A stretch of DNA of 64,000 bases from Polyangia bacterium (GCA_036268875.1 DATATI010000034.1:151875-215874); one strand, 5' to 3'; positions 44,841 to 62,971 are shown, counted from the stretch's first letter. A program made the numbers and translations. Notes: generated by a model not told the origin, from the letters alone.

Positions 44841-44951
44841 CCACTCACGCTAACGTGAGCACCAAGAGAATCGCCAGCCAATTTTGACAATGTGATCCTG
44901 ATCTTTTCATCGGCTCGTCATCAACAAAATTTTCCCTCGCGGCACATACAA

Positions 44952-45995
44952 ATGGTGAGTGTGTCTTCTCGGTTGGTCAGAGGGTCGTTCCTGCTCCCGC
45001 TGCTCGTTGCCGGCTGCAGCAGCAGCGGAGGAGGCGGCGCAAAGGACGGCTCGTGCTCGAGCAGCGCCGCCAGCGCAACGCTCGCGGGTCCATGTGACCT
45101 CGCGGATCACGTCGGGCAGTTCTCGCTCGCGCTCGAGGCCGCCTCCGGATCGACGCCCGCCTACAGCCAGCTTGCGGGCAGCGTCCATGACAAGGTGGAT
45201 CCGTCGACGGTGTGGACGGCCGCCATGACGTCAGGCGGCTGCAGCGTGCTCACGGGACCGACGTATACCTGCGCGACGAAGTGCGTGAGCCCGCAGATCT
45301 GCGTGGCCCAGGATACCTGCGGCGCGGCGCACACGCTGCAGAGCGCGGGCGACGTCACGCTGACCGGCGTCGGCTGTGCGCGCACGGAAGCGTTCATGCC
45401 GGCGTCCGGGTATTTCGACAGCCTCACGGGCATTGCCTACCCGCCTGTCGATCCCGGCACCGCGCTCTCGATTTCGGCCGCCGGCGGCGCCGCCGCCGCG
45501 TTCACGCTGCACGGCGAAGGCATCGAGCCACTGGCCGTTCCGACCGGCATGCTGTCGCTGGTCAGCGGTCAGGACCTGACGGTGACCTGGACGGCGCCCC
45601 TGGCGGCCAGCATGGCGTCGATCCAGATCGTGATCGACGCCGCCCACCACGGCGGCACGCTCGCGCGGCTCGAGTGCGACACCCTCCCCGACACGGGCAC
45701 GGCGACGATCGACGGCGCCCTCGTCGCGGCGCTCATCAGCAAGGGGGTCGCCGGCTTCCCGACCATCACCATTACCCGGCGCGCGGTCGATTCGACGATG
45801 ATCGGCGCCGGCTGCGTCGACTTCAGCGTGTCCTCGTCGGTGACCAGCGCGATCATGGTGTGCCAGGCGGCGGGTAGCTGCACGGTGTCCTGCAATTGTG
45901 GCGGCAGCTCGGGAAGCGGCGCCTGCTCGGGCGCCGCCAGCGACGTACCCTGCGCGCCAGGCATGACCTGCCAGGCGGACCTGACATGCAAGTGA
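44952..45995 (+). CDS. Lipoprotein, family A member 1
   Basis: A 347-residue lipoprotein (lipobox LVAGCSS). It holds two Cys-containing beta-rich regions and ends with a Cys cluster (CSGAASDVPCAPGMTCQADLTCK). A paralogue lies at 49938, sharing the opening SLALEAASGSTPAY/LLNEALDGTPAY, the ISHHGG/DAAHHGG block and the same CQxDLxCK end. Unknown function. Its stop overlaps the dikinase-like gene by 10 bp, so both are one operon. The ATG at 44952 opens directly on the signal peptide. Confidence 0.65.
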   Translation: MVSVSSRLVRGSFLLPLLVAGCSSSGGGGAKDGSCSSSAASATLAGPCDLADHVGQFSLALEAASGSTPAYSQLAGSVHDKVDPSTVWTAAMTSGGCSVLTGPTYTCATKCVSPQICVAQDTCGAAHTLQSAGDVTLTGVGCARTEAFMPASGYFDSLTGIAYPPVDPGTALSISAAGGAAAAFTLHGEGIEPLAVPTGMLSLVSGQDLTVTWTAPLAASMASIQIVIDAAHHGGTLARLECDTLPDTGTATIDGALVAALISKGVAGFPTITITRRAVDSTMIGAGCVDFSVSSSVTSAIMVCQAAGSCTVSCNCGGSSGSGACSGAASDVPCAPGMTCQADLTCK

Positions 45996-48265
45996 GGGCG
46001 CGGCCGATCGCGCTCGCGGCGTCTCTGGCGGCAGTCGTCGGCTGCGGCGGCGGCGGCTCGTCCGGTGCGCAGCAGTGCCGACTGGCGGCGTCCGTGCTCG
46101 CCTCGGCGAACGACGCCAGCGATGGCGGCAACGACGACGACGGCGGCGCGGCCGGCGTGCCCGACGACCTGCAAGAGATCGGCTGCTATGGCGACTTCGA
46201 GGCGCTGGCCTCGGTGCCCATCGATCAATCGATCCCCGGCGGCATCTCGGCCAAGATCGTCTACGACTCGTCCGGCGCCAAGCCGGCGTTGTACTTTCAG
46301 AACAGCAAACGCTTCCTCATCCACTACGACTTCGCCTCGAAGAACCTCTCCGGCCCCGAGCACCCGACCGTCCCGCCGCTGGCCCAGTTCAACACCACGG
46401 AGTACGGCGGCTCGACGGAGAGCGGCCGGCGCTTTCTGCTCGGCGACGTCACGTACTACGAGGGTCCGAAGATCTTCGCGATCGAGATCGCCCCGTACGA
46501 CACCATGCCGGCGGGCGACATCGCCAAGTTCTTCCGGGCGATCAAGGCCAGCGCCTACTTCGGCGCCCGGCTGACCTTTCACCCGACGTCGGACTCGGTA
46601 ACGGCCGTCGCTGCGACCCTTCCCGCCGACGTGCCCGTCAAGACCACCGACGACATCTTCGCCGCCATCGACTACGAGCCGCTGAACCTGGCGACGACTG
46701 TCGGGCAGATCAAGTTCCACACGGCGGCCGAGCTGGCCAGTGACGACAGCGTCGTCGGCTACCAGGACATCGTGGTGCTCGACTCCGCGGTCGGCCAGAT
46801 CCCTCCCTGCGCCGGCCTCATCACCCAGGACTTCCAGACGCCGCTGTCGCACCTCAACGTGCTGTCGGAGAACCGCGGCACGCCGAACATGGGCCTGCGC
46901 AGCGCGCTCACGAATCCGACGTTGCTCCAGTATCAGAATCAATGGGTGCAGTTCACCGTGGGCCCAAGCTCGTGGTCGGCGACGCCGGTCAGCGATGCGT
47001 TCGCGCAGCAATGGTGGGCCGACAACAAGCCGACGCCCGTGACGTTGCCGGTGGCTGATTTCAGCGTCACCGCCATGACCGACGTGCAGGATCTGGTCAT
47101 CGAGGATCCGAAGCACCCCGAGCTGCTTGGCCCGGAGATCGCGACCGCAACCCGCGCGTTCGGTTCCAAGGGCAGCAACTATGGCGTCCTCGCCAATACG
47201 GGCGTCGACGCCGGCGGCAACGTCATCAGCCTGGGCAAGGACGCGACAGGCGCGACGCTGAACGATCCTGAGAAGGCCGTCTACCGCGTGCCCGTGCGTC
47301 CGGCGTTCGTGATTCCGCTTTACTGGTATCACCAGTTCTTCGTCGAGAACGGCTTTTACGATCAGGTGGACGCCATGCTCGCCGACGAGAGCTTCGTCAA
47401 CGACTCGGCGAAGCGCACGCAGGTGCTCACCGACTTCATGAACCAGATCATCGCGGCGCCGCTCAGCCAGGCGTTCTCGGACACGCTGCGCGCGAAGCTC
47501 GAGGCCGCCGGGATCGCGGGCAAGACCGTCCGCTTTCGCAGCAGCACGAACGCCGAGGACCTGGACGCCTTCCCGTGCGCCGGCTGTTACGACTCGAAGA
47601 CCGGCGATCCCGCCGACTGGACGGGCAGCCTGCTGGTCGCCGTGAAGGAGGCCTGGGCGAGCGCGTGGAAGCCGCGCACCTTCGACGAGCGCACGCAGCA
47701 CAGCATCGACCACAAGACCGTCGCCATGGGCTTGCTGGTGCATGAAAACTTCGCCAACCCCAGCGAGTACGCCAACGGCGTCACGCTGACCGCCAACCCC
47801 TTCGAACCGTCGGGCCTCGAGCCCGCCTTCTTCCTCAACTACCAGCAGGGTGGTCAGTACGACGTCGTCGAGCCGGCGGCCGGGATCACGAGCGATGAGA
47901 TCGTCTATTACTGGTACAACTTGCCCGACCAGCCAACAACGTACCTCGCGCACTCGAACATCGTGCTGCCGACGCAGACGGTGCTCAACGCCGCACAGCT
48001 GAACGTTCTCGGCACGGCGCTGGACACCATTCACAAGCGCTTCTCTTACGCCTATGGCCCGCTCGCCGCGACGCCGAACAAAGGCTTTTACGCCGTCGAC
48101 GACGAGAGCAAGTTCCTGTGCACGGCCGACCCGACCGAGAAGACCTTCGTGCCGACGAACTGCAACTACGCCGATCCCAGCAAGAACCACACGGTGCTGA
48201 TCATCAAACAGGCGCGTCCGAACAGCGGCGAGGGTTACCTGAGCAATTCGGGCAACGACAATTGA
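45986..48265 (+). CDS. Secreted dikinase-like lipoprotein (phosphohistidine swivel and PEP-synthase ATP-binding motifs)
   Basis: A 759-residue lipoprotein (lipobox near residue 20, VVGCGG). Residues about 225-320 look like the phosphohistidine swivel domain of PEP-utilising enzymes: FQTPLSHLNVLSENRGTPN, with His289 as candidate. Residues about 395-700 resemble the N-terminal ATP-binding domain of PEP synthase and pyruvate phosphate dikinase: VRFRSSTNAEDLDAF (515-529) and LVHENFAN. Swivel before ATP-binding domain is the order of alpha-glucan, water dikinases. An export signal is odd, as ATP is scarce outside. It starts within the previous gene (10-bp overlap). Confidence 0.7.
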   Translation: MQVRARPIALAASLAAVVGCGGGGSSGAQQCRLAASVLASANDASDGGNDDDGGAAGVPDDLQEIGCYGDFEALASVPIDQSIPGGISAKIVYDSSGAKPALYFQNSKRFLIHYDFASKNLSGPEHPTVPPLAQFNTTEYGGSTESGRRFLLGDVTYYEGPKIFAIEIAPYDTMPAGDIAKFFRAIKASAYFGARLTFHPTSDSVTAVAATLPADVPVKTTDDIFAAIDYEPLNLATTVGQIKFHTAAELASDDSVVGYQDIVVLDSAVGQIPPCAGLITQDFQTPLSHLNVLSENRGTPNMGLRSALTNPTLLQYQNQWVQFTVGPSSWSATPVSDAFAQQWWADNKPTPVTLPVADFSVTAMTDVQDLVIEDPKHPELLGPEIATATRAFGSKGSNYGVLANTGVDAGGNVISLGKDATGATLNDPEKAVYRVPVRPAFVIPLYWYHQFFVENGFYDQVDAMLADESFVNDSAKRTQVLTDFMNQIIAAPLSQAFSDTLRAKLEAAGIAGKTVRFRSSTNAEDLDAFPCAGCYDSKTGDPADWTGSLLVAVKEAWASAWKPRTFDERTQHSIDHKTVAMGLLVHENFANPSEYANGVTLTANPFEPSGLEPAFFLNYQQGGQYDVVEPAAGITSDEIVYYWYNLPDQPTTYLAHSNIVLPTQTVLNAAQLNVLGTALDTIHKRFSYAYGPLAATPNKGFYAVDDESKFLCTADPTEKTFVPTNCNYADPSKNHTVLIIKQARPNSGEGYLSNSGNDN

Positions 48266-49937: not shown

Positions 49938-50921
49938 ATGTCACGCCCCCGCGCAAGCTTCCCTGGGCAGATGGGGGGGGGCGTGCCCGGAGCACTTCTC
50001 CTCGCGGCGCTCTGCGCGGACGCCTGCTCGGGCGGCAGTTCCGCGTCAATACCCGACGGCGGTGACGCGGGCGATCCGGTCGGTGCGTTCAGCGTCCTGC
50101 TGAACGAGGCTCTGGACGGAACCCCGGCCTACGTGTTGATCGTCGGCAACGTCCACAGCGGACCGACGCCCCTGGCGGTGCAGCTCACAGTGAGTGACAC
50201 CGCCGGTAGCTGCCAGCTCTCGAAGCCGGTGGCGTACGCCTGCGGCTCCGGCTGCGGCGGCACCGCCGTCTGCGTCGCTGACGGTGTCTGTCAGAACTCC
50301 CCGACGCTCGAGGACGTCGGCGCGGTGACCGTGTCGGGCGTGGCGAAGGCGATGGGCGACAAGACCGTGATGCTGACATCAGTGAACGGCAACTACAGCC
50401 CGACGGCGGACGAGGAGCCGGCTTATCCGCCTTTCTCCGAGGGCGACGACGTCGAGGTCGACGCGACCGGCGGGAAATACGCGGCGTTCTCGATCCGCGC
50501 GAAGGCGATCGCCCCGCTCGTGCTGCCCGCCGACACCGTCACTGTTCAAAGGAACCAACCCGTGTCGTTGAAGTGGACAGCCGCCGGCGCCGCCGCGACG
50601 TCGAAGATCCACGTCAAGCTGGAGATCAGCCATCACGGCGGCCTCAAAGGACAGATCGACTGCGACACCACGGACACGGGCGCGCTGGATATCTCCGGGT
50701 CGCTGGTGACCGAACTTGTGGACCTGGGGTACTCGGGCTACCCGTCGATTACCGTCAGCCGCAGCGCGATCGGATCCACGACGATCGCGCTCGGGCGCGT
50801 CGATCTGAGAGTCGGCGAGGACATCATTCGTGACGTGCAGATCCCGGGATTGGTCTCGTGCACCGCGGACGCGGACTGCCCGACCGGTCAGACGTGCCAG
50901 ACGGACCTGCAATGCAAATGA
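49938..50921 (+). CDS. Lipoprotein, family A member 2; first gene of the VTC operon
   Basis: A 327-residue lipoprotein (lipobox near residue 32, CADACSG) paralogous to the product at 44952: same Cys pattern, same ISHHGG block, and the CQTDLQCK end. Two beta-rich halves around 40-140 and 160-300. Its stop overlaps the next gene as ATGA. I choose the ATG at 49938, which gives a normal signal peptide and does not run into the phosphatase gene; frames from 49788 or 49905 are longer. Unknown function. Confidence 0.65.
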   Translation: MSRPRASFPGQMGGGVPGALLLAALCADACSGGSSASIPDGGDAGDPVGAFSVLLNEALDGTPAYVLIVGNVHSGPTPLAVQLTVSDTAGSCQLSKPVAYACGSGCGGTAVCVADGVCQNSPTLEDVGAVTVSGVAKAMGDKTVMLTSVNGNYSPTADEEPAYPPFSEGDDVEVDATGGKYAAFSIRAKAIAPLVLPADTVTVQRNQPVSLKWTAAGAAATSKIHVKLEISHHGGLKGQIDCDTTDTGALDISGSLVTELVDLGYSGYPSITVSRSAIGSTTIALGRVDLRVGEDIIRDVQIPGLVSCTADADCPTGQTCQTDLQCK

Positions 50922-51970
50922 AGCCGACGGCGCCCAAGGACGCGCTCCGAATCCGCGCGCTGGCGCAGGCGGCGCTCTTCGCTGCGCTCGGGTCATCGGT
51001 CGCTTGCGGCGGGAGCACGAACGCCGGCGGAGCGGGCACCGGCGGTCAAAGGGGCGGGACGGGAGGCGCCGGGACGGGAGGCGCCGGGACCGGGGGTAAC
51101 GCGGATGCGGCGGCGGGCACCGGCGGCAGCGGTACCGGCGGCTCGACTGCGAGCGGAGCGGCAGGAGACGCCGGCTCGAGCGGCGGAAGCGGCGGCGGGA
51201 CGGGGACCGACGGCTCGTCAGGCGACGCCGGAGCGCTCGCTGACGCCGGGACAGACATCGCCATCCCGACGGCGAAATTCAGCTTCTTCGTGACCAGCCT
51301 CAAGGCGCTGCAGGCGCTCTCCGGCAGCTCGCAAGGTTTCGGAGGGGACCTCCGCTTCGGCGAGACCGGCGCGGGGGCGGGCCTTCGCGGCGCCGACAAG
51401 ATCTGCGCCGCCATCGCGGAACGGAGCCTCCCGGGCACGGGCGCCAAGCCCTGGCGAGCGTTCCTCTCGGCCGTCGCTGGCGAAGACGGCAAGCAAGTGA
51501 ACGCCGTCGATCGGATCGGCGCTGGCCCCTGGTACGACCGCCTGGCACGCACGTTCGCGCTCACGAAGGCCGATCTGCTCTTCACGCGTCCGCGCAACGC
51601 GAACCCGGCGGTCGCCAATGACTTCCCGAACGAAGACGGCGTGGCAAACCACGCGCCCGATGCCACGGCCGGCCAGGTCGACAATCATGACTTTCTCACC
51701 GGTACGAACGCCTCGGGCCAGCTCAACGGACCGAGGTCAACCTGCGCCGACTGGACGGGCAAGACCGGCACAGAAGGCCCGCCGCACGTGGGTCACTCGT
51801 GGCCGCGCGGCACAACGGGTGGATCGGCGAATTGGATGTCCGCGCTCGACGAGGCTGGCTGCGCGGCGGGCATCAATCTCGTCGAGCAGGGCGGACCGAT
51901 CAAAGGACAGGACACCGTGGGCTCCGGGGGCGGATACGGCGGCTTTTATTGTTTCTCACTCACCCCATGA
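50918..51970 (+). CDS. Endostatin-like (DUF1554-type) lipoprotein 2
   Basis: A 350-residue lipoprotein (lipobox GSSVACGG) with a Gly/Thr-rich linker to about residue 105, then the endostatin-like domain: FSFFVTSLKALQALSGSS, GADKICAAIAE, WRAFLSAVAG, GPWYDRLA, NDFPNEDG, DNHDFLTGT, GHSWPRG and a GGYGGFYCF end. ATGA overlap with the family A lipoprotein gene and an 18-bp gap to the VTC gene place it in the same operon, suggesting that it works at the surface with the export genes. Confidence 0.75.
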   Translation: MKPTAPKDALRIRALAQAALFAALGSSVACGGSTNAGGAGTGGQRGGTGGAGTGGAGTGGNADAAAGTGGSGTGGSTASGAAGDAGSSGGSGGGTGTDGSSGDAGALADAGTDIAIPTAKFSFFVTSLKALQALSGSSQGFGGDLRFGETGAGAGLRGADKICAAIAERSLPGTGAKPWRAFLSAVAGEDGKQVNAVDRIGAGPWYDRLARTFALTKADLLFTRPRNANPAVANDFPNEDGVANHAPDATAGQVDNHDFLTGTNASGQLNGPRSTCADWTGKTGTEGPPHVGHSWPRGTTGGSANWMSALDEAGCAAGINLVEQGGPIKGQDTVGSGGGYGGFYCFSLTP

Positions 51971-51988
51971 GGCGCGAACGTTTCATCG

Positions 51989-52873
51989 ATGGCCGGTAGC
52001 AAATTGAATCTCGTTTGGTCATCAGCGCGTGTCGACGGCAAAGAAGCAGCAGAGACGGTGGCGCGCGCGCCGCTCATCAACCTGCCCGTGCGCGAGGTCG
52101 ATCGCTTCGAGCTCAAGTACTGGGTTCCGAACGCCGTCTGCCAGGAGGTCGTCGAGTACGCTCGCCCCTACCTCATACTTGATCCATGGAACGTCAAGGT
52201 GGGGCTCGAACGTCAGTACAATTCGACGCTCTACCTCGAGACACCGCGTCTCGATGCGTACCAGACACACAAGGATCAGGCAGCCGATCGCTACAAGCTG
52301 CGTGTGCGCGCCTACGGCGAGATCCCGGCCGGCATGGCGTTCTTCGAGGTCAAGCGCAAGATCAACGCCATAACCGTGAAGACGCGGGCGCCGGTGCCGA
52401 TCGAAGAGGTCGGGCCCCTCCTCGAAGGAATGGGGCCGATGCCCGAAAAGCTGTCGACCGAAGAACGCCGCAGCCTGGAGAACTTCCTCTTCCTGCAGAC
52501 GGCGACGGGCGCCCGGCCCTACGTGCTCGTGCGAGCGCATCGCGAGTCGTACTGCACGCCCGACCCGCGCGAGGACGTGCGCCTGACGTTCGATCGCGAC
52601 ATCGGCTTCCAGTCGGTGCGCGGGCCGTCGCTCCGCGGCGATCCGCGCGGGTGGATCCCAATCGACGGCTATGACCAGCACGGGTTCTACGGCCAGCACA
52701 CCATGATCGAACTCAAGTTCCCACGTTTCGCGCCTGCCTGGATGGGCCACCTAATTAATAGGCTAGACATGTGGCGGGTCGCCTACTCGAAGTACGTCGC
52801 CGCCGTGCAGTCGCTTATCGATCAGCCGATGACGGACGCGATGGCCTGGGACTTCGCTGGGGAGATCGACTAG
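51989..52873 (+). CDS. VTC-domain polyphosphate polymerase
   Basis: A 294-residue cytoplasmic protein with the tunnel-fold VTC domain that polymerises ATP gamma-phosphates into polyphosphate. Tunnel residues known from yeast Vtc4 appear to be kept: Arg39, Glu41 and Lys43 in RFELKYWV, Tyr78 and the LYLET strand, Lys103/Arg105/Arg107 in KLRVRAYG, Glu120/Lys122 in FEVKRK, Arg182/Arg185, Arg198 with FD at 201-202, Glu241/Lys243 in IELKF and Ser267-Lys268 in YSKYV. There is no SPX domain and no membrane segment. Next gene, DUF4956, starts directly after the stop. Confidence 0.88.
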   Translation: MAGSKLNLVWSSARVDGKEAAETVARAPLINLPVREVDRFELKYWVPNAVCQEVVEYARPYLILDPWNVKVGLERQYNSTLYLETPRLDAYQTHKDQAADRYKLRVRAYGEIPAGMAFFEVKRKINAITVKTRAPVPIEEVGPLLEGMGPMPEKLSTEERRSLENFLFLQTATGARPYVLVRAHRESYCTPDPREDVRLTFDRDIGFQSVRGPSLRGDPRGWIPIDGYDQHGFYGQHTMIELKFPRFAPAWMGHLINRLDMWRVAYSKYVAAVQSLIDQPMTDAMAWDFAGEID

Positions 52874-53527
52874 GTGGAGCAGCGCATCGCCTGGGAAACG
52901 GCAGTCGCGTCGCTCGCGCTTGCCTTCGCGCTCTCGGTCGTCGTCGCCTGGCTTTACTCGGCGACCCATGCCGGACTGTCCTATCTTCGTGGATTCACCC
53001 AGAGCATCGCGATGGGCGGCATCATCGCCGCGTCCGTCATGCTGGCCATCGGCGACGACGTGGCGCGCGGCCTCGGCGTGGTGGGCGCGCTCACCATCGT
53101 CCGCTTCCGGACAACTATCAAGGATACGCGCGACCTCATGTTCGTCTTCGCGGGGCTCGCCGCCGGTGTCGCCAGCGGCGTGCAGAGCTACGCCGTGGCC
53201 ATAGCCGGCACGGGCATGTTCGCTGTGGCCGTCGGCTTCCTGCACGTGACGTCGTTCGGCACGCACCGGCAGTTCGACGCCGTTTTGCGCATCCGCATGC
53301 CCGCCAACTCGCCCGAGCAGCGCGCGTTCACCGACTTGCTTGAACGGCACTGCCGACGCTTCATGCTCGTCAACCTGCGCGAGGCCGGCCACGAGATCTA
53401 CGAGCACTCCTACCAAGTGCAGTTCTCCGATCCAAAGGCCGGCGCCGCCCTCTTGCGCGAGATCAACCTTCTGCCCGGACTCACGGGGGCAACCCTCCTC
53501 ATGCAGGACTCGTCGCTCGAACTATGA
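52874..53527 (+). CDS. DUF4956-family inner-membrane protein
   Basis: A 217-residue protein with four membrane helices (about residues 10-30, 38-60, 70-95, 100-125) and a cytoplasmic domain of about 90 residues. The signature GVVGALTIVRFRTTIKDTRD is kept. The family nearly always sits beside VTC-type genes, often with a CotH-like kinase, and is thought to work with them. It starts with GTG immediately after the VTC stop and overlaps the adaptor gene as ATGA. No CotH gene is near. Confidence 0.88.
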   Translation: MEQRIAWETAVASLALAFALSVVVAWLYSATHAGLSYLRGFTQSIAMGGIIAASVMLAIGDDVARGLGVVGALTIVRFRTTIKDTRDLMFVFAGLAAGVASGVQSYAVAIAGTGMFAVAVGFLHVTSFGTHRQFDAVLRIRMPANSPEQRAFTDLLERHCRRFMLVNLREAGHEIYEHSYQVQFSDPKAGAALLREINLLPGLTGATLLMQDSSLEL

Positions 53528-54549
53528 TCAGATCACGCGCCCGCTTTGCGGCCCCAGCCGCCATCCTCGCCGCAGGGGCCATCTTCTGGACGCTCGCCCA
53601 TGGCGGTACGTTGGGCGGCCTCTCCGCGCGCGGCTACGCCGAGGATCTCGACACGCCTGCCGCGCCGGTCGCCGCCGGCCGCGTCGCGCGCGTCCTTGTC
53701 GAGGTGGGCCAAGCCACGCACACGGGCGACGTCGTGGCTGTCATGGACACGGCCGAGCTGGAGCTCAAGCTCGCGAACGCGCGCCTCGCGCTCAGCCGCT
53801 CGAATACCCAGCTCGGCGCAGGCGAGTTCAAGGCCGGCGCCGCGGTCGCGCGCGCCGAGCTGCTCGTGCTCAGGACCGAGGGGACGCTGACGCGCGACCG
53901 CGCCGAACTGACCGAGGTACAGCAACAACTCGCGCGCCTGGAGAAGCTGGCAAGCGATCAGCTCGTGCAGGCGCGCACCGTCGAGCAGGAAAAGCTCAAG
54001 GAGGCCGACCTCAGGGCCAGCGTCGAGCTGCTGGACGCCGCGACGAAGCAGCGCCGCGCGGGCCTTGGGCGCAAGCAGGGAGGCCAGGCGGCGCTCGACG
54101 AGGTCGAGCTGCAGCTCGCGCCACTGCGCGATGCTGTGCATGTCGCCGAAACGTCCGTCAAGCTCGCGCAGCTTGCCTACGACGAGGCCACCGTGCGTGC
54201 CCACGCCGACGGCGTCGTGTCGGCGATCCTCCGTCACGCGGGCGACGTCGTGCCCGCCGGCACCGAGCTGGTCCGGATCGTCAGCGGCCGCCCCGGCCGG
54301 GTCGTGTGCTGGGTACCGGAGCGTGAGCTCGGCAAGGTCGCCGTCGGGCGCGGCGTCCACCTGCGTGGCCAGAGCCTGTGGAGCGCGCGCTGGAGCGGGC
54401 GCATCGCGGTGGTCGCGCCCGAGGTCGAGGAGGTCCCGGTGCGCGCGCGCCTGGCGCCTCAGGTGCCCGCCTGGGGCCGTCGCGTCGAGCTTGAAACCTG
54501 GCCGCCTCAACCGTTCGTTCTGGGTGAGGTGGTCCATGTTCGTTTCTGA
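53524..54549 (+). CDS. HlyD-type periplasmic adaptor (membrane fusion protein)
   Basis: A 341-residue protein with one N-terminal membrane anchor (about 8-25), a biotinyl-lipoyl half near residues 50-75 (AAGRVARVLVEVGQATHTGDVV), a long coiled coil (about 78-205), then the second lipoyl half (VRAHADGVVSAILRHAGDVV) and a beta-barrel. Adaptors link an inner-membrane transporter to a TolC-type channel. No ABC, RND or MFS pump is encoded nearby, so DUF4956 is the only inner-membrane partner in the operon. Overlaps its neighbours by 4 and 14 bp. Confidence 0.88.
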   Translation: MIRSRARFAAPAAILAAGAIFWTLAHGGTLGGLSARGYAEDLDTPAAPVAAGRVARVLVEVGQATHTGDVVAVMDTAELELKLANARLALSRSNTQLGAGEFKAGAAVARAELLVLRTEGTLTRDRAELTEVQQQLARLEKLASDQLVQARTVEQEKLKEADLRASVELLDAATKQRRAGLGRKQGGQAALDEVELQLAPLRDAVHVAETSVKLAQLAYDEATVRAHADGVVSAILRHAGDVVPAGTELVRIVSGRPGRVVCWVPERELGKVAVGRGVHLRGQSLWSARWSGRIAVVAPEVEEVPVRARLAPQVPAWGRRVELETWPPQPFVLGEVVHVRF

Positions 54550-55525
54550 GCTCGCCCTGGCGTTGCCCCTCGTGGTCGCTGCTGCATCGAGCGAACCAGC
54601 GGCCCCGTCCGAGCCGGCGCCGCCGCTCATCGGCGTACCCGCGAGGCTCGCCCGGCGATCCGCGACGCTTGAGCCCTCAGGCATCGTGTGGGCGGCGAAG
54701 CTCGATCGCTATCTCGTGGTAAGCGACGACACGGGCCCCGCCAAGCACCACCACGAGCCATGGGTTCTGGCCATGAGCCGCGACGGCGTCTTCGACGCAG
54801 AGCCCGTGCCGCTGCTGGGCCTCGACGAGCTCAACGACGCCGAATCGATCTGCGCCGGCCCGAACGGGCTCTTCTTCCTGGTGACCTCGCACTCGCTCAA
54901 CAGGCGCGGCCTCGACAAGAACGCGCGCGATATGCTGTTGCTCCTCGGGCTCGAAGGGCGTGGACTGAGCGTGCTCGGCCGTCTCGATCTCAAAACGGCG
55001 CGGGCCTCCGACGGTAGCGGCTCGCTGCTCTCGCGTGCGGGCCTGCCAGCCGACGGACGACTCGACATCGAGGCCATCACGTATCGCGATGGCGCGTTGC
55101 TCGTCGGTCTGAAATCACCACTTTCCGCGCATGACGGCGCCGTCGTCCTCGCCTTCGCGAACCCCGTGGCGGCGCTACGGGCGGGCCGCCTGCCGCCGGG
55201 GGCCATCACGCGCCGGTGGGAGATCGCTCTTCATGGCGCGGCGGGCGGGGTCCCGGAGGGTATCGCCGACCTCACGACGCTGCCCGACGGGCGCATCGCC
55301 GTACTGGCGAATTCACCGAAGGGCCGTGCGAGCGACCATGGCGGCTCACTGTACTGGTTTCACCCTGACACGGGCGGCGTGACCTTCGTGCGCCAGTGGG
55401 TCGGCTTCCACCCCGAAGGGATAACGCTCGCGGCTGACGGCAAGGGGCTCGTGATCGTGTTCGACGCCAACACGGAACCGCCGCGCTGGACACGCTGGCC
55501 CTTGCCAGCGCTGGGCGCGCCTTGA
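54536..55525 (+). CDS. Exported DUF3616-like protein
   Basis: A 329-residue protein with a signal peptide (about 1-17). Strand-turn repeats suggest a beta-propeller: EPSGIVWAAKLDRYLVVSDD, DELNDAESIC, FLVTSHSLNRRG, RLDIEAITYRDG, VPEGIADLTTL. The SHS and dE motifs resemble DUF3616. The ATG at 54536 is in frame with a longer reading (from 54065) that lies inside the adaptor gene; GGTGAGG precedes it. Its TGA overlaps the TTG of the TolC-type gene. Function unknown; perhaps binds or cleaves the exported product. Confidence 0.65.
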   Translation: MFVSELALALPLVVAAASSEPAAPSEPAPPLIGVPARLARRSATLEPSGIVWAAKLDRYLVVSDDTGPAKHHHEPWVLAMSRDGVFDAEPVPLLGLDELNDAESICAGPNGLFFLVTSHSLNRRGLDKNARDMLLLLGLEGRGLSVLGRLDLKTARASDGSGSLLSRAGLPADGRLDIEAITYRDGALLVGLKSPLSAHDGAVVLAFANPVAALRAGRLPPGAITRRWEIALHGAAGGVPEGIADLTTLPDGRIAVLANSPKGRASDHGGSLYWFHPDTGGVTFVRQWVGFHPEGITLAADGKGLVIVFDANTEPPRWTRWPLPALGAP

Positions 55526-56898
55526 AGGCGGCCCGCGGCGCGCGACGCCGGGCTGCCGCGGAGCTCGCTTACGCAGCCGCGGCGCTGGTCGCGGCCGGCT
55601 GTTATCACCCGCGTCCGCTCGATGCGCGCGCCCTCATGAACGAGCTCGCGGCCCAACCTGAGAACGGTTCCGCGGCCGCGCCTGGGCGGCCCGCAATCAC
55701 GCCTCCACCCGGGCTGACCGAGGAGGCGGCGGTCGCATTCGCGATGCGCGGCAACCCCGACCTGCGCGCCTTGCGCCTTGCCCGCGGCATCGCCGAGGGC
55801 GAGGTCGTCGCCGCAGGCGCGCTGGCCAACCCCACGATCGGGTTCGACGTCATCCACATCGAGGATTGGGTGAAGACGGAGACCAAGACGCAAGGATGGG
55901 CTTTGCAGCTCGGGTGGCAGCCGCCGCAGCCGGAGGCGTTCGCCGCGAAGCGCGCGGCCGCGCGCGCCGGTGCGCAAGCCGTCGACGCCGACATCGCCGA
56001 GGCGGAATGGCAAGTCGCCACATCCGTGCGCGCGGCACACGCGGCCCTGCTCACGCTCGCCGACAAGCGCGCGCTTGTCGAGAAGGAGCTCGAGGCGCGC
56101 CGCAAGATTGTTGACCTCGTGGGCAAGCGCGTCGCGGGAGGCGCCTCGACGCGTCTTGACCTTGGTGTCGCGCAGCTGGCCGTCGCCCAAGTCGAACGGG
56201 AACATGACGAGCTCGCGGCGGAGCAGATCGAGGCGGGGACGTTGCTCGGCCAGCTCCTCGGCACGGCGCCGGTGTCCGACGTCGCCGGTGCGCTCGCCGG
56301 CGAGACGCGCTCTCCGCCCGCGCTCGACGCGCTCGTCGACGCGGCGCTGGAAGTACGGCCGGCGCTGGCCGCCGAAGAGCGGCGCTACCACCAGCGCGAA
56401 GAAAACGTGAGGCTCGAACACGCTCAGCGTTTTCCGTGGTTCAAATTCACGGCCATCCCGCGCTACCGCGCCGACGGCTCGGACGTCCACCCGCGCGATT
56501 TCTCCGCGGGTATCGAGCTCACCGTGCCGATCCTCAACCTGAACGGCGGCCCCATCCAGATCGCCGAGGCGTCTCGGGATCGGGAGCGCGAGCTGTTCGC
56601 CAAGCTCGTGGGAGGCATCCGGCGGGACCTCGCGGGCGCGCGCGAAGAGATTGAGCTGCGCGCCGTGACGCTGCGCCGCTACCAGGCCGACGTGCTGCCG
56701 AGCCTCGACGCACAGGAGAAGCTGCTGGCGGCGGCCGTCGCGGGCGGACAGCTCGACATCGTCGCGCTCACGACGGCCGAGGATGGCATCCTGCGCACGC
56801 GCAGCACCTACGTCGACCTCAAACTCGCCGCCTACCGGGCATGGTTGGCACTCGATCGCGCCGTCGGACGGCGACAGTCTACGCCGGCGTCGCGCTGA
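55522..56898 (+). CDS. TolC-family outer-membrane factor
   Basis: A 458-residue outer-membrane efflux protein with a lipobox-like N-terminus (VAAGCYHP), as in the NodT-type branch of TolC proteins. Two long helical repeats are visible (about 85-250 and 290-440) with barrel strands between, such as FSAGIELTVPILNLNGG. The TTG start overlaps the previous stop as TTGA. It closes the operon that begins at 49938 and gives it an outer-membrane exit. Convergent with the choice-of-anchor-type gene, 17 bp between. Confidence 0.88.
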   Translation: MKAARGARRRAAAELAYAAAALVAAGCYHPRPLDARALMNELAAQPENGSAAAPGRPAITPPPGLTEEAAVAFAMRGNPDLRALRLARGIAEGEVVAAGALANPTIGFDVIHIEDWVKTETKTQGWALQLGWQPPQPEAFAAKRAAARAGAQAVDADIAEAEWQVATSVRAAHAALLTLADKRALVEKELEARRKIVDLVGKRVAGGASTRLDLGVAQLAVAQVEREHDELAAEQIEAGTLLGQLLGTAPVSDVAGALAGETRSPPALDALVDAALEVRPALAAEERRYHQREENVRLEHAQRFPWFKFTAIPRYRADGSDVHPRDFSAGIELTVPILNLNGGPIQIAEASRDRERELFAKLVGGIRRDLAGAREEIELRAVTLRRYQADVLPSLDAQEKLLAAAVAGGQLDIVALTTAEDGILRTRSTYVDLKLAAYRAWLALDRAVGRRQSTPASR

Positions 56899-56915: not shown

Positions 56916-58172
56916 TCATTGCACCGGAGCTGGCGCGGCGGCCCCACACACGCCACCCGCCTGGGTGAGCGCGGGGTCGTAGCTGATGTGGACGTCGCCA
57001 CCGACCGAGAGCGTCCCCACGAACAGGCTGCCGGAGAGGGACAGGCCCTGGCCCGCCGAGAACACGGCGGCCGGCGCGTAGACGAATGCGCCGAATTGGA
57101 TCTGGTCGGGCAGCGAGACCGTCGATGATCCAACCCAAAGACGCGTCGAAGCGGGCGTCTGCGGCGAACCGAAAACCCTTCCCGTCGCATAGAACGAGCC
57201 CCCGACGACGAGGTCGAGGGTCGCGCCCTCATCGAGTGTCACCGAGAGCGTGTTGCCGAGCCGGACGTCGCCGGCGACGAAGATGCCCACGTGGCCGTGC
57301 ACGCGCAGCTCGAGGGCACCCGCGTCCCCGGTGTGGATCGTGTCGAGGTAATATTCGCCGCATGGCCAGTCCACGCTCTGCGCCGTCTCGAGATCGTCGA
57401 GCAGGTCGTCCGAGAAGGGCAAAAATGCGTTCGCGTTCTTCGCTCGCCGCGCCGCAACGGCGGCGCCGACGTCGAATGCGGGACCGGACGCGCAGCCGCA
57501 GGGCGGCGCGACGGACACGGGCTCGCGCTTCGTCGACTTGGCCTGGACGGAGGTGGCGACAGTGGCGTCCGCGGGCGCATGTAGCGTGGCCCCGACGACC
57601 AGACCGCCCGAGACGTCACCCGAGAGGTAGCCGTCGCCCGTGATCCAGTAGGACGAGGACACATGAACGTTGCCCGCGAGGTGGGCGTTGCCGAGGACGT
57701 GTCCCCCGGTGCCGAGAACGACATCGCCCGTGCCCGCGGAGATGAAGCTCCCGGGCACGTCCCAGTGCCCGGGGACACGCAAGGCGCCGTCGGTGCCGAC
57801 GGCTGCGAAGAAGCTGTGCGCGAGCAGCCCGTCGACGGGGTGGCTGCCGGGCCAGGGGTTCGCCGGTGGCGGCGGGCCGCCGGGCGGCGGCGGCGGACCG
57901 CCGGAGCCGCTCGGGGTCCCGAAAGCACCGACCAAAAAGTTGCCGGCGAGCACGAGATCGTTGCAGGCACACAGTGCGTAGCGCCCGATCTGGGCGGCGA
58001 GGGCGCCGGCACAGGCGCTCTGGCTCCCGTCGACAAGCTGGATGGGCGGCCCGGGGGCCGCGCAGGCGGCCGTCGCCGGCGCCTCGACGAGCTCCGTCGT
58101 GCGCGTGCACCCGAGCGCGCCGGCAATAAAAGCCAGCGCGACGACTGAGAGCACGCGCGTCACGGCCCTCAC
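56916..58172 (-). CDS. Lipoprotein with polymer-forming or adhesin-like beta-helix
   Basis: A 418-residue lipoprotein (lipobox near residue 22, AGALGCTR) with a Pro/Gly-rich segment (about 90-110). The rest has repeated short strands typical of a right-handed beta-helix (VLGTGGHVLGNAHLAGNVHVSS, GYLSGDVSGGLVVGATLHA). It resembles DUF7305/bactofilin-like and adhesin-type surface proteins of Myxococcota. The GTG start overlaps the anti-sigma stop as GTGA, so it is last in the sigma-factor operon and a likely target or partner. Confidence 0.7.
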   Translation of the reverse strand: MRAVTRVLSVVALAFIAGALGCTRTTELVEAPATAACAAPGPPIQLVDGSQSACAGALAAQIGRYALCACNDLVLAGNFLVGAFGTPSGSGGPPPPPGGPPPPANPWPGSHPVDGLLAHSFFAAVGTDGALRVPGHWDVPGSFISAGTGDVVLGTGGHVLGNAHLAGNVHVSSSYWITGDGYLSGDVSGGLVVGATLHAPADATVATSVQAKSTKREPVSVAPPCGCASGPAFDVGAAVAARRAKNANAFLPFSDDLLDDLETAQSVDWPCGEYYLDTIHTGDAGALELRVHGHVGIFVAGDVRLGNTLSVTLDEGATLDLVVGGSFYATGRVFGSPQTPASTRLWVGSSTVSLPDQIQFGAFVYAPAAVFSAGQGLSLSGSLFVGTLSVGGDVHISYDPALTQAGGVCGAAAPAPVQ

Positions 58173-59356
58173 TCGCGCGCGTGGAGCTGCCGAATTCGCT
58201 CGTCCGCCTCACGCGCGAAGCGTCCACGCGGGTAGCGCGCGAGATAGTCGTCGAAAGCCGCGCGCGCTGCCGCCTCGGCGCCGCGCTCGGATAGAAGCTG
58301 GCCAGCCGCGAAGGCCGCGGTCTCGCCCTCGGGCGTCCTTTCGTACCGGCGTGTCACGGCCCGGTAGGCCGCGATTGCCTCGTCAGGGCGGCGCTCGACG
58401 AGCAGCACATCCGCCGCGAGGAGATCGAGACTCGGGCGCTCGGACGCCCTCGGACCTGCGGCGCGCGCCCGAGCCATCAGGGTGCGCGAGCGATCGGAGT
58501 CGCCTTCGGAGAGCGCGGCGCGCGCGCGAGCGAGAAGGTCGGCGACGCTGACGACGAAGCGCCGCACCGGAGCGCGCGCAGCCGTCGGCGTCGCCGACAC
58601 GAGGTGCGCGGGCGCGACCTCGGGCACGGGCAGGGGCGTGACCGCCGGCGCGACGTCGGCTGGCGGCGGGCTCCAGGATTGGCCGGCCGAGACATATGCC
58701 AGCTCGTGCCCATCGAGGTCGAGGACTTCAACGCGCCCGCGGAGCGTGCGCACACCCGACAGCGTGACGACGAAACGCGTCCCCAGCACCTCGACGATGA
58801 AGCGGCCCGTCGTCACGCGGAAGCGGCGCGCGCTGTGCTCGATCACGTCGACGTCGACTCGGCCGCGCGTGAGCGCGAGGGTCCGTGTCGTCGGATGGAA
58901 CGTCAGCACTGTGCCGTCGTCGTATCGTACGTCGGCGCCGCCGAAGGCGAGCACGCCAGGTTGAGATCGTTCGAGCGTCTGGCCCTCGGCAAATACCGGA
59001 GAGCCGGTGAGGCGCGGCGGCAGGCGCCACACGGCGACCAGCCCTCCAGCGCCGACCGCGAGCGCGGCGAAGGCAGCGAGCGCGACGCGCGAACGACGGC
59101 GCGGCGCCGCACCGAGGCGCGACCGCGTGGACGATTCGGTCGTCACAAGGCGCGCGACGATCCGCCGCTCCGCAGCCGGCCCGAGCCGGGGAGGCGGCTG
59201 GCCGCGTAGCTCGCCGAGAAGCTGAAAAGCGGCGCGCGACTCTCGACAGCGCGCGCAACCCTCGAGATGACCCTCGACCTCCAGTCGCACGCCGTCGCTC
59301 GCCGTGTCGCGCACGATGTCGAGCAATCGCCGTTCGATCGAGCCACAGGAGCTCAC
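58169..59356 (-). CDS. Anti-sigma factor-like protein with FecR domain and TPR tail
   Basis: A 395-residue protein: zinc-finger of HC2 type at the N-terminus (HLEGCARC), one membrane helix (about 88-110), a FecR-type domain (about 120-225, FRVTTGRFIVEVLGTRFVV) and TPR-like helices to the end (GPRASERPSL, GETAAFAAGQLLSERG). It would hold the sigma factor in the cytoplasm and sense a signal in the periplasm. I choose the GTG at 59356, which overlaps the sigma stop as GTGA; an ATG at 59374 is also possible. Confidence 0.82.
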   Translation of the reverse strand: MSSCGSIERRLLDIVRDTASDGVRLEVEGHLEGCARCRESRAAFQLLGELRGQPPPRLGPAAERRIVARLVTTESSTRSRLGAAPRRRSRVALAAFAALAVGAGGLVAVWRLPPRLTGSPVFAEGQTLERSQPGVLAFGGADVRYDDGTVLTFHPTTRTLALTRGRVDVDVIEHSARRFRVTTGRFIVEVLGTRFVVTLSGVRTLRGRVEVLDLDGHELAYVSAGQSWSPPPADVAPAVTPLPVPEVAPAHLVSATPTAARAPVRRFVVSVADLLARARAALSEGDSDRSRTLMARARAAGPRASERPSLDLLAADVLLVERRPDEAIAAYRAVTRRYERTPEGETAAFAAGQLLSERGAEAAARAAFDDYLARYPRGRFAREADERIRQLHARE

Positions 59357-60015
59357 GTGTTCTCCTCCGGCCAATCGCCGATCAGCCCCGCCGCCAGCTC
59401 CCGGAGCTCGGGATCATTGCGCACGATCTTCCGCAGCTCGCGGCGCGCGAAAAACATGCGCGAGCGCGTCGCCGTCTGGGTCGCGCGCATGAGCGCGGCG
59501 ATCTCCTCGACGGAGCGATCTTCCAGGACGTAGAGCAAGAGCGCGATGCGCTTCTTCGGGGCGATGCGGTCGCACGCCGCGTGCAGCTTGGCGGCCAGGC
59601 GTCGCCCGTCGAGGCGGTCATCGGCCTCGACGCCGCTGCCATCGACGAGCGCGAGGGAGGTCGGCGCTCGATCGTCGGCGACAAGCTCGAGCGGGACGTG
59701 GCGCCGCACCTTGCCTGCGCGCAGGTGGTGGTGGGCGACGTTGACCGCGATCCCGCACAGCCAGGTGCTGAGCTTGGCCTCGCCGCGGAAACGTCCGAGG
59801 TTGGCGATCGCCTCGGCGAACGTCGTCTGCACCAGGTCTTCGAAATCAGCGGTCGGCCCCACCAGGCGGCCAATGACGCCCTCGATCATCGCGCCATACG
59901 CGCGGTAGAGCGCCTCCACGGCCTCGGGCCGCCGGGCGCGGCAGCCGGCCAGGGCGGGATCGTCCGCAGCCATCTCGAGGATCGGGAAAGCGCGCGCTTT
60001 GGCGGATCTGGTCAT
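59353..60015 (-). CDS. ECF-type RNA polymerase sigma factor
   Basis: A 220-residue sigma-70 family protein with region 2 (FEDLVQTTFAEAIANLGRFRGEAKLSTWL) and region 4 (KKRIALLLYVLEDRSVEEIAALM). There is no region 3, as in extracytoplasmic-function factors. GGAGGTC just before the ATG at 60015 sets the start; a longer frame from 60138 is less likely. It is coupled by overlap to its anti-sigma factor, and follows the barrel gene after about 46 bp. Confidence 0.88.
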   Translation of the reverse strand: MTRSAKARAFPILEMAADDPALAGCRARRPEAVEALYRAYGAMIEGVIGRLVGPTADFEDLVQTTFAEAIANLGRFRGEAKLSTWLCGIAVNVAHHHLRAGKVRRHVPLELVADDRAPTSLALVDGSGVEADDRLDGRRLAAKLHAACDRIAPKKRIALLLYVLEDRSVEEIAALMRATQTATRSRMFFARRELRKIVRNDPELRELAAGLIGDWPEENT

Positions 60016-60061
60016 TGACCTCCGGTGAGTGCCTTCACAGTATGATCGTGTTGAAAGCAGC

Positions 60062-61156
60062 TCACAGAAGCAACCACTCGAGGCCGATGGCCGCGCTCGA
60101 CACCATGCCGCCCGTGTCGAGGGCGGGCTGCGCCGCAATCGTGAATTGCTGTTTCGGCACCAAGGCTTCGATCGTCGCGCTGAGGAACACCTTCATGTAG
60201 GCAGCGAGCGGGACATCGACGCGCGCGACGCCGCCGAGGCCGAGCGAATAACGACGCACGCCGCGCATGAGATCTTCGCCGTCGTTGATCGTGACGTCGA
60301 ACGCGTGGAGGCTGGCGCGGGGACCGGCTCCCAAGCTCGCGAAGGAGCCGACGCGCGTCAACACGAGGCCGAGGCCCACCGGCACGTCGGAAATGGTCAC
60401 GGCATAGCCACGCACCATCGCCGTGGGCTGCGTTGTGATCTTCGCGTCCAAGACAAGTGACACCGGCGTTGCGGCGCTGCGGCCGAGCCGCGCCTCGACA
60501 GCGACCAGGATGCCGTGGCGGAGCCAGTTCGAATCGGATGGCACGACGACGTTGTAGGCCACTGCTAGACCGAAGCGGTGCGCGGGTACCGGTTCGGCGG
60601 CCGGACGCGCCACGATGGCGGGCGGCGCGCCCGCACCCGTCGGCTCGGGCGGTCTGACGGTAGGTGGCGGAGCCGGCGCCGTCACGGGTTTGGGCTTTGG
60701 CGAAGCCACTGCGGGCGCGTCTTCGGCGGCGCGCGCCTGACGACGGGACAGAAGCGAGCGCACCTTTAACGCAACGTCCTCGGCGGCGCGCTCGGCACCG
60801 AGCGGTGCGATCTCGGTCTGCCGGAGATCGCGCGCGTCGACATCGAAGGCGCAATAAGCAGAACGTCCATCCGCCAGTCGGCTGCTCCACAGAACGATGT
60901 CCGCACTCTCGTGGCGCGCGTCCTCGACCAGCTGGCGGACGACGGCGAGCCCGCATGTCCTCGGCGCCGGGCCGCCGAGCACAAGGCGCCGATCGACATC
61001 GCCCGTGTAGATCCGTAGCGCCTCGACGAGGCGCGCGTCCTCGGTGCCGAGGGCGCTGCTCAGCACGAGGATCGTCGAGGCATCTGCGCGGGCCCGGCCG
61101 CCGGCGGCCATCACCATGAAGAACGGCATGACGAGCGCGACGCGCGACCTGGACAC
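60062..61156 (-). CDS. Outer-membrane beta-barrel protein upstream of the sigma factor
   Basis: A 364-residue exported protein: signal peptide (about 1-24, ending ARADA), a Rossmann-like or PEGA-like periplasmic part (about 25-145), a Pro/Ala linker (about 150-195) and a C-terminal barrel of about 170 residues ending with LEWLLL. I choose the GTG at 61156 as it gives a normal signal peptide; a TTG at 61186 would add ten residues. First gene of the operon with the ECF sigma and anti-sigma, so perhaps the sensor or target. No family recognised. Confidence 0.6.
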   Translation of the reverse strand: MSRSRVALVMPFFMVMAAGGRARADASTILVLSSALGTEDARLVEALRIYTGDVDRRLVLGGPAPRTCGLAVVRQLVEDARHESADIVLWSSRLADGRSAYCAFDVDARDLRQTEIAPLGAERAAEDVALKVRSLLSRRQARAAEDAPAVASPKPKPVTAPAPPPTVRPPEPTGAGAPPAIVARPAAEPVPAHRFGLAVAYNVVVPSDSNWLRHGILVAVEARLGRSAATPVSLVLDAKITTQPTAMVRGYAVTISDVPVGLGLVLTRVGSFASLGAGPRASLHAFDVTINDGEDLMRGVRRYSLGLGGVARVDVPLAAYMKVFLSATIEALVPKQQFTIAAQPALDTGGMVSSAAIGLEWLLL

Positions 61157-61292: not shown

Positions 61293-62285
61293 ATGACGAA
61301 CCTGCGACGCCGAACGATGATTGTGCCTTTGGCCATCGCCCTCGTGACGGCTTGTTCGGCCTCCAGCGAGCCGATGGGAGGTGCGTCCGGCGGTAGCAGC
61401 GGCGAGTCGGGCGGCGCCGGGGGCGGTACTGGCGGGACGCCGGGTGGTAGCGGCGGCGCCGGTGGGACGATGGCCGGGAACGGTACCGGCGGGACGGTGG
61501 GCGCGAATGGCACAGGTGGGACAGCGGGCGCGAGCGGCACCGGTGGCGCCTCGGGCGCCGGCGGCGCTTTGGCGCACTTCAGCTTCTTCGCGACAAGCCT
61601 CAAGGCCATGAGGATGCTTTCGGGCAACGAAAATGGGTTCGGCGGCGACCTGCATTACGGCCAGGCGAACGGGCTCGCCGGTGCAGACATGATCTGTTCC
61701 GACATCGCGGAGATGTCGATGCCGGGCTCGAGCGCGAAGCAGTGGCGCGCCTTCCTGAGCACGGTCTCAAACCCGAGCCAGGTTAATGCGAAGGATCGAA
61801 TTGGCACGGGCCCCTGGTACGATCGCACGGGCCGGCTCATCGCTTCCACCCTCACGGCGCTGCTGATGCAGCGGCCCGGGGATGCGAGCGCAGCGATCAG
61901 GAACGACTTGCCAAACGAGAACGGCATTGCCAACCACAACCCCGACGGCACGGGCCAGGTTGATAACCACGACTTCCTCACCGGCACGGGCACGGACGGC
62001 AACCTCTATAAGCCGTCGTCGGGCGGTATGGGCCCGACCCGCGCTGGTTCTCTGACCGCGACGTGTTACGACTGGACCTCGAACATGCAGGCCGCGAACA
62101 TGGGCCCTTGGTGCGGTCACTCGTGGGGCGCGCAGAGCGGCCAGGATTGGAAGTCGTCCCTGGCGGAGGGCGGTTGCGGGGCAGGCGTCAACCTCATCGA
62201 GATGGGCGGCCCGCAAAGGGGCGTGTACACCGTGGGGACGGGCGGCGGCTACGGCGGCATCTACTGCTTCGCGCTCACACCGTAG
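61293..62285 (+). CDS. Endostatin-like (DUF1554-type) lipoprotein 3
   Basis: A 330-residue lipoprotein (lipobox ALVTACSA) with a Gly/Ser/Thr-rich linker (about 25-92), then the same endostatin-like domain as the products at 43016 and 50918: FSFFATSLKAMRMLSGNE, GLAGADMICSDIAE, WRAFLSTV, GPWYDRTG, NDLPNENG, DNHDFLTGTG, GHSWGAQ and GGYGGIYCFALTP. GAGG lies before the ATG. It is next to the DUF47 gene, about 65 bp apart. Confidence 0.75.
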   Translation: MTNLRRRTMIVPLAIALVTACSASSEPMGGASGGSSGESGGAGGGTGGTPGGSGGAGGTMAGNGTGGTVGANGTGGTAGASGTGGASGAGGALAHFSFFATSLKAMRMLSGNENGFGGDLHYGQANGLAGADMICSDIAEMSMPGSSAKQWRAFLSTVSNPSQVNAKDRIGTGPWYDRTGRLIASTLTALLMQRPGDASAAIRNDLPNENGIANHNPDGTGQVDNHDFLTGTGTDGNLYKPSSGGMGPTRAGSLTATCYDWTSNMQAANMGPWCGHSWGAQSGQDWKSSLAEGGCGAGVNLIEMGGPQRGVYTVGTGGGYGGIYCFALTP

Positions 62286-62350: not shown

Positions 62351-62971
62351 ATGAGACTCCTGCCGCACGATCGCTCGTTCTTTTCTCATTTCGAGGCGCA
62401 GGGACGCAAGACGGTCGAGGGATGCAAGGCCTTCGTCAACATGATCGACAATCCAACGGGATTGCCCGGTCAGGCCCAGCGAATCAAGCAGATTGAGCAC
62501 GAGTGTGACGAGATTACCCACGCCGTCGTGTCCGCGTTACATAAGACCTTCATCACGCCGATAGACCGCAATGACATTTACAAGCTCATTACCAAGATGG
62601 ACGACATCATGGACCTCGTCGAAGCCGCCGCCGAGCGGCTCGCCCTTTATGAGCTCACCGCGATGACGAAGGAGGCCGGAGATCTCGCGCGTTGCCTCGT
62701 GAGCAGCGCCGAGCATGTCCTCGGCGCAGTCATAGGAGTTCGCGACCTTGGAAAGCCCGATGCCATACTCGAGCATTGCCTCGAGATCAACAGGCTCGAG
62801 AACGTCGCCGACGACCTCTTGCGTGGCGCCCTCGCCAGGTTGTTCCGCGAGGAGAAAGATCCAATCTCCGTCATCAAATGGAAGGAGATCTACGAGACAC
62901 TTGAAGCCGCCACCGACCGCTGCGAAGACGTCGCGAACGTTATCGAAGGTGTAGTCCTGGAGAATAGCTGA
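62351..62971 (+). CDS. DUF47 (PhoU-like) phosphate transport regulator
   Basis: A 206-residue all-helical protein of the DUF47 family, distant kin of PhoU. The N-terminal LLPHDRSFFSHFEAQ, the EHECDEITHAVV metal-binding type motif and the RLENVADDLLR motif fit well. Such proteins usually sit beside a PitA-type phosphate transporter and control phosphate uptake; the transporter is not in this window. Its presence here adds to the phosphate theme set by the VTC operon. Weak ribosome binding site. Confidence 0.88.
   Translation: MRLLPHDRSFFSHFEAQGRKTVEGCKAFVNMIDNPTGLPGQAQRIKQIEHECDEITHAVVSALHKTFITPIDRNDIYKLITKMDDIMDLVEAAAERLALYELTAMTKEAGDLARCLVSSAEHVLGAVIGVRDLGKPDAILEHCLEINRLENVADDLLRGALARLFREEKDPISVIKWKEIYETLEAATDRCEDVANVIEGVVLENS

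Follow-up and report, generated by a model that had tools for sequence, protein, structure and literature searches.

A 64,000-nucleotide stretch of a Polyangia-class Myxococcota genome (GCA_036268875.1, DATATI010000034.1:151875-215874), hereafter the window, carries a gene cluster in which a VTC-domain polymerase and a DUF4956 membrane protein are joined to an HlyD-type periplasmic adaptor and a TolC-type outer-membrane factor. Together with its conservation elsewhere, this establishes a dedicated pump-less VTC-DUF4956-HlyD-TolC system at the gene level. On balance we favour, with reserve, the reading that VTC makes polyphosphate from adenosine triphosphate (ATP), that DUF4956 passes the chain through the inner membrane and that HlyD and TolC carry it outside. 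Of the polyphosphate export machine proposed in an earlier note on this DNA, the dedicated set of polymerase, adaptor and TolC genes without a pump is borne out, whereas the channel role of DUF4956, the assembly of a single complex and export itself we infer. The gene set is a concrete and widespread candidate for a dedicated polyphosphate route across the diderm outer membrane.

The gene cluster in the window

All seven genes that had been described as overlapping or nearly touching are present on the + strand between positions 49938 and 56898, tightly packed with junctions ranging from a 14-bp overlap to an 18-bp gap. The VTC-domain triphosphate-tunnel polyphosphate polymerase, predicted to be cytoplasmic (294 amino acids; 51989..52873, +), is followed with a gap of 0 bp by the gene for the DUF4956 inner-membrane protein, the proposed inner-membrane conduit (217 amino acids; 52874..53527, +), which overlaps by 4 bp the gene for the HlyD/EmrA-type periplasmic adaptor with one N-terminal membrane helix (341 amino acids; 53524..54549, +). 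The adaptor gene in turn overlaps by 14 bp that of a phytase/apyrase-like periplasmic domain of the five-bladed-propeller type (329 amino acids; 54536..55525, +), and the latter overlaps by 4 bp the gene for a TolC/OprM-type outer-membrane factor (458 amino acids; 55522..56898, +), whose translation contains an AAGC lipobox. The family identities given in the earlier note for VTC, DUF4956, HlyD and TolC are supported by Pfam matches above the cut-offs, namely VTC (PF09359, E 3e-30, 105.8 bits against a curated cut-off of 23), DUF4956 (PF16316, E 4e-11), HlyD_3 (PF13437, E 8e-12) and HlyD_D23 (PF16576, E 4e-10) in the adaptor, and OEP/TolC (PF02321, E 6e-27, two stretches). The sixth gene had been called DUF3616-like, which did not hold, as its nearest Pfam family is Phytase-like (PF13449, E 1e-5, 25.7 bits, just under the curated cut-off of 27.6) and the product resembles a phytase/apyrase-like propeller. 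The genome of the window carries one VTC gene, one DUF4956 gene and two PPK1 genes, the latter separate from the cluster, and no CotH gene anywhere, hence the window cluster is not a VTC-DUF4956-CotH set. Kinship labels and the tree both group the window at class level with Polyangium-like genomes.

Conservation of the gene order

VTC was found in 133 of the 379 genomes of the phylum Myxococcota, and the VTC-DUF4956-HlyD-TolC order holds across this phylum. A first set comprised 60 neighbourhoods of the best VTC matches in Myxococcota, 58 of them with DUF4956 and 57 with room to test; in 56 of these 57, HlyD follows DUF4956 on the same strand at a distance of at most 250 bp, and TolC is present in 35 of the 44 loci with room. 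Adaptor and propeller form one protein in 27 loci of this set and are encoded by neighbouring genes in 3. A second, DUF4956-anchored scan, overlapping the first for Myxococcota, covered 80 loci, with HlyD in the cluster in 76 of the 78 testable ones (downstream in 74, in another gene order in L128 and L158), adaptor-propeller fusions in 42, TolC in 50 of the 58 with room and VTC likewise on the stretch in 69 of the 80. Where no VTC is linked, 9 of the 11 genomes carry it elsewhere, both Sorangium strains included; in Sorangium cellulosum VTC (L216, L217) lies megabases from the DUF4956-adaptor cluster (L135, L154) and is still kept.

The linkage of VTC, DUF4956 and HlyD extends over about 130 partly overlapping loci from 13 named diderm phyla, which are Myxococcota, Acidobacteriota, Pseudomonadota, Fidelibacterota, Bdellovibrionota, Kiritimatiellota, Calditrichota, Planctomycetota, Thermodesulfobacteriota, Verrucomicrobiota, Ignavibacteriota, Lentisphaerota and Gemmatimonadota, Pseudomonadota being represented by one firm locus (L109) with the others apparently Myxococcota contigs under an old name. 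This conservation of linkage across phyla rules out a chance juxtaposition. The conserved core is VTC-DUF4956-HlyD(-propeller)-TolC, and the two lipoproteins that had been counted into a unit of seven genes are a lineage-limited addition to it, one that also takes in a secreted dikinase-like protein. Among the cultured hosts are Nannocystis exedens DSM 71, Sorangium cellulosum, Polyangium fumosum and Desulfoluna limicola.

A contrast set of 20 weaker VTC matches of Myxococcota (L193-L212) revealed a second arrangement, as 16 of the 20 fall outside the adaptor form, keeping the VTC-DUF4956 pair, usually with one or more CotH genes, and with an HlyD-like gene nearby in only 1 of the 16. In the DUF4956 tree the adaptor-linked form makes up one group of 118 rows with moderate support (89/85), with L119 and L163 as the only real exceptions. 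The adaptor-linked loci are thus a distinct subtype, the second VTC-DUF4956 type of Myxococcota being CotH-linked; CotH also occurs near 20 of 58 loci in the first set and 25 of 80 in the second.

Tunnel residues of the VTC polymerase

A single-sequence search of the PDB with the VTC protein gave nothing useful, but a profile of bacterial VTC domains matched yeast Vtc4 (3g3q, E 7e-22), ranked above Vtc2 and Vtc3. The tunnel residues on which the earlier note's proposal depends are present, with 13 Vtc4 residues, the catalytic lysine included, kept in 53-54 of 54 bacterial VTC homologues. In the window protein R39, K43, R105, R107, E120, K122 and K131 correspond to Vtc4 R196, K200, R264, R266, E279, K281 and K294, while R133, R185, R198, E241, K243 and K268 correspond to R296, R361, R373, E426, K428 and K458. 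A dead VTC domain is ruled out by these conserved residues, and synthesis of polyphosphate from ATP by this enzyme is strongly predicted from them.

The DUF4956 membrane protein

No polytopic membrane protein of the unit is conserved besides DUF4956. Its AlphaFold2 model (predicted local distance difference test score, pLDDT, 88) comprises five predicted membrane helices and a C-terminal domain of ACT/ferredoxin-like fold. Residues Y28, R77, R79, D87, G98, G102 and R139 are invariant among homologues, and loops 1 and 3 are basic; by the positive-inside rule, these loops and the C-terminal domain would therefore face the cytoplasm.

Adaptor, propeller and the missing pump

A homologue in which adaptor and propeller are fused (L067) was modelled with a pLDDT of 90 and contains one membrane helix, an EmrA-like adaptor and the propeller. 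Its adaptor part aligns with EmrA (4tko) with a Z-score of 18.6 over 319 residues, and its propeller with YjiK (3qqz, Z 19.6) and with the human calcium-activated apyrase (1s18, Z 17.5). In the separate propeller of the window the invariant residues are E46, S48, D64, D101, R131, E179, E294 and D310, an acidic and basic constellation that suggests a binding or active site.

Of the parts of a tripartite efflux pump, the adaptor and the outer-membrane factor are thus present, and a linked energised inner-membrane pump is missing. In agreement with the earlier note, no recurrent ATP-binding cassette (ABC), resistance-nodulation-division (RND) or major facilitator superfamily (MFS) pump was found within 3 kb of 137 adaptor loci by a motif and size screen and by clustering, a co-inherited pump not having been searched for genome-wide. 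The screen returned seven sporadic candidates, repeated only through duplicate copies of the same contigs, and a pump hidden near the cluster was accordingly rejected. No close paralogue of the adaptor is encoded elsewhere in its own genome.

Proposed polyphosphate export and its alternatives

The proposed route starts with the cytoplasmic VTC enzyme, which would polymerise the phosphate of ATP into polyphosphate and hand the growing chain to DUF4956, whose invariant arginines on the predicted cytoplasmic face could accept it. Polymerisation and membrane potential would power the passage through the inner membrane, a mechanism put forward for yeast VTC, and the HlyD/EmrA-type adaptor would then span the periplasm to the TolC-type channel, so that polyphosphate reaches the surface, while the propeller may have a part in binding, trimming or releasing the chain. 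An ATPase or proton-driven pump would not be needed, because the polymerase would take its place. In the yeast VTC complex synthesis is coupled to translocation along a basic path that connects tunnel and channel (PMC9911596), and by analogy this path may serve as a model for VTC-DUF4956. If the proposal is correct, a polymerase would stand in for the pump in feeding a tripartite conduit of the envelope, and the system would be a bacterial equivalent of VTC in yeast.

Several observations weigh against this reading. We know of no experiment showing that a bacterial VTC makes or exports polyphosphate. HlyD is absent from two loci of the adaptor clade (L119 and L163), and TolC was not found in 9 loci with room in the first set and 8 in the second, where it may therefore come from elsewhere. 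The VTC-DUF4956 pair occurs without an adaptor, and the pair therefore has a function for which outer-membrane export is not needed. A DUF4956 profile found no credible relative and hence no solved homologue in the PDB, and Pfam gives no kinship of DUF4956 to the yeast VTC membrane domain. Finally, hydrolytic tunnel enzymes carry glutamates in place of four basic Vtc4 residues (PMC4641920), and at these positions, as mapped by inference, the window protein is basic as in Vtc4 at three and has one glutamate (E41, corresponding to Vtc4 T198). With the Vtc4 residues conserved and one of the four discriminating positions a glutamate, polymerase activity is therefore the likely reading, though unproven.

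The best-surviving alternative, which we nevertheless regard as unlikely, is that polyphosphate is delivered only into the periplasm and is used or degraded there by the propeller or other enzymes, with HlyD and TolC acting as a scaffold or handling a side product. The adaptor-less pairs are consistent with this, as is the propeller with its conserved acidic and basic constellation and a fold shared with a phosphoanhydride-cleaving apyrase, but an adaptor adjoining DUF4956 and a TolC-type channel recur in the 13 named phyla, and a periplasmic store needs neither. Somewhat less probable is a conduit that exports another phosphate-containing or acidic product, the bacterial VTC domain catalysing a different tunnel-enzyme reaction. 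Tunnel enzymes do catalyse diverse reactions (PMC4641920) and E41 is hydrolase-like, yet the near-complete retention of the checked Vtc4 residues, among them K458 and the basic K294 and K428, and the preference of the profile for catalytic Vtc4 over Vtc2 and Vtc3 argue against it.

It is more doubtful still that DUF4956 is no channel but regulates the polymerase, or ATP synthase, in an MgtC-like manner, with the chain crossing the inner membrane by other means. The MgtC profile matches two DUF4956 homologues (E 6e-6 and 6e-4, both below cut-off), the window protein matching DUF4956 only, and alignment of the two families by hhalign gives a probability of 77% with E 2e-5, from which a remote kinship of DUF4956 and MgtC is probable. 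In addition, a fold search, which covered the C-terminal domain and not the membrane part, returned ACT-like matches including the C-terminal domain of MgtC (2lqj), and ACT is a common regulatory fold. Against a purely regulatory role stand the position of DUF4956 as the sole conserved polytopic membrane protein of the unit and its invariant membrane-proximal arginines. Very improbable is a role of HlyD and TolC as partners of an unlinked pump of ABC, RND or MFS type, with shared regulation as their tie to VTC-DUF4956. The nearest fold of the adaptor is EmrA, the partner of an MFS pump, but the same immediate linkage is seen in 13 named phyla, no type of pump recurs near the loci, and the adaptor is the only one of its kind in its genome.

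Relation to known systems

With the eukaryotic VTC complex (Vtc1/3/4) the bacterial set shares a cytoplasmic tunnel polymerase with the same catalytic residues and a membrane part with basic residues, but Pfam finds only VTC and DUF4956 and no SPX or VTC1-type domain, the MgtC-like DUF4956 standing instead, and the set faces the cell envelope, joined by an adaptor and an outer-membrane channel. The HlyD/EmrA-type adaptor and TolC-type channel are common to EmrAB-TolC and type I tripartite exporters, whereas here a polymerase and DUF4956 occupy the place of the pump and the adaptor is often fused to a propeller. In synthase-dependent polysaccharide export (cellulose, alginate, Pel) a polymer synthesised at the inner membrane leaves the cell as it grows; the proposed coupling of inner-membrane synthesis to export is alike, but the predicted product here is inorganic polyphosphate, the bridge is of TolC type and the synthase and scaffold families are lacking.

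In Gram-positives, CotH, a poly-phosphate polymerase and DUF4956 are accessory genes beside Pel clusters (PMC7112168). Such sets, found in streptococci, clostridia and bifidobacteria, share the VTC-DUF4956 pair, and CotH is frequent near the present loci too, but no adaptor or outer-membrane factor is reported for them. A VTC/CotH locus is also described in Clostridium perfringens, where a neighbour of VTC is annotated as tubulin-like (PMC2879425); CP4_0461 and CP4_0464, membrane proteins of 222-226 amino acids lying beside VTC and annotated there as 'tubulin/FtsZ GTPase', are by size and position probably DUF4956 proteins. A 2023 study of the gonococcal polyphosphate pseudo-capsule goes no further than to say that additional gene products may contribute to passage across the outer membrane (PMC10237660); polyphosphate is there likewise found outside a diderm cell but is attributed to PPK. 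No published description of the adaptor-TolC form was found in the literature searched, which did not cover preprints and most subscription journals. All parts come from known families; the arrangement itself lacks the pump that defines tripartite systems and the SPX or VTC1-type domain of eukaryotic VTC, its function being the predicted part.

Accessory lipoproteins and neighbouring genes

Upstream of the core lie the genes for the predicted lipoprotein LP1 (327 amino acids; 49938..50921, +), which matches no Pfam family, and for a DUF1554-like predicted lipoprotein (350 amino acids; 50918..51970, +; PF07588, E 1e-3, below cut-off), overlapping each other by 4 bp and separated from VTC by 18 bp. 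Polyangium, Sorangium and other genomes carry LP1 homologues close to this core, and DUF1554-like homologues are present in Polyangium and Sorangium clusters. The related cluster reaches further upstream to a secreted PPDK_N/dikinase-like lipoprotein missed by the earlier note (about 760 amino acids; about 45986..48265, +; PF01326, E 8e-17) and to an LP1 paralogue directly before it (44892..45995, +; LP1 profile E about 1e-104). Dikinases are normally cytoplasmic. The lipoprotein keeps the motifs PL[SA]H, R[ST]S[TS]N[AS]EDL and KQ[AV]RP, with a conserved phosphohistidine-like motif and an ATP-grasp motif of PPDK/PEP-synthase type, and dikinase-like proteins also accompany the core in Polyangium, Sorangium and other genomes.

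It is speculative that CotH, or here the dikinase-like protein, LP1 or the DUF1554-like protein, acts on or uses an exported polymer. A rather improbable extension is that exported polyphosphate serves as phosphate donor or energy source for surface lipoprotein kinases, CotH elsewhere and the secreted dikinase-like enzyme here; surface kinases fed in this way would permit extracellular phosphorylation without extracellular ATP.

Two more DUF1554-like predicted secreted proteins flank the cluster on the + strand (43016-43843 and 61293-62285). A DUF7305/ice-binding-like protein is encoded at 56916-58172, and an extracytoplasmic function (ECF) sigma factor beside a zinc-finger/FecR/TPR protein lies convergent to the cluster at 58169-60138 (-). 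A few kb 3' of the cluster is found a DUF47/PhoU-like protein (62351-62971, +), a type usually linked to phosphate transport.

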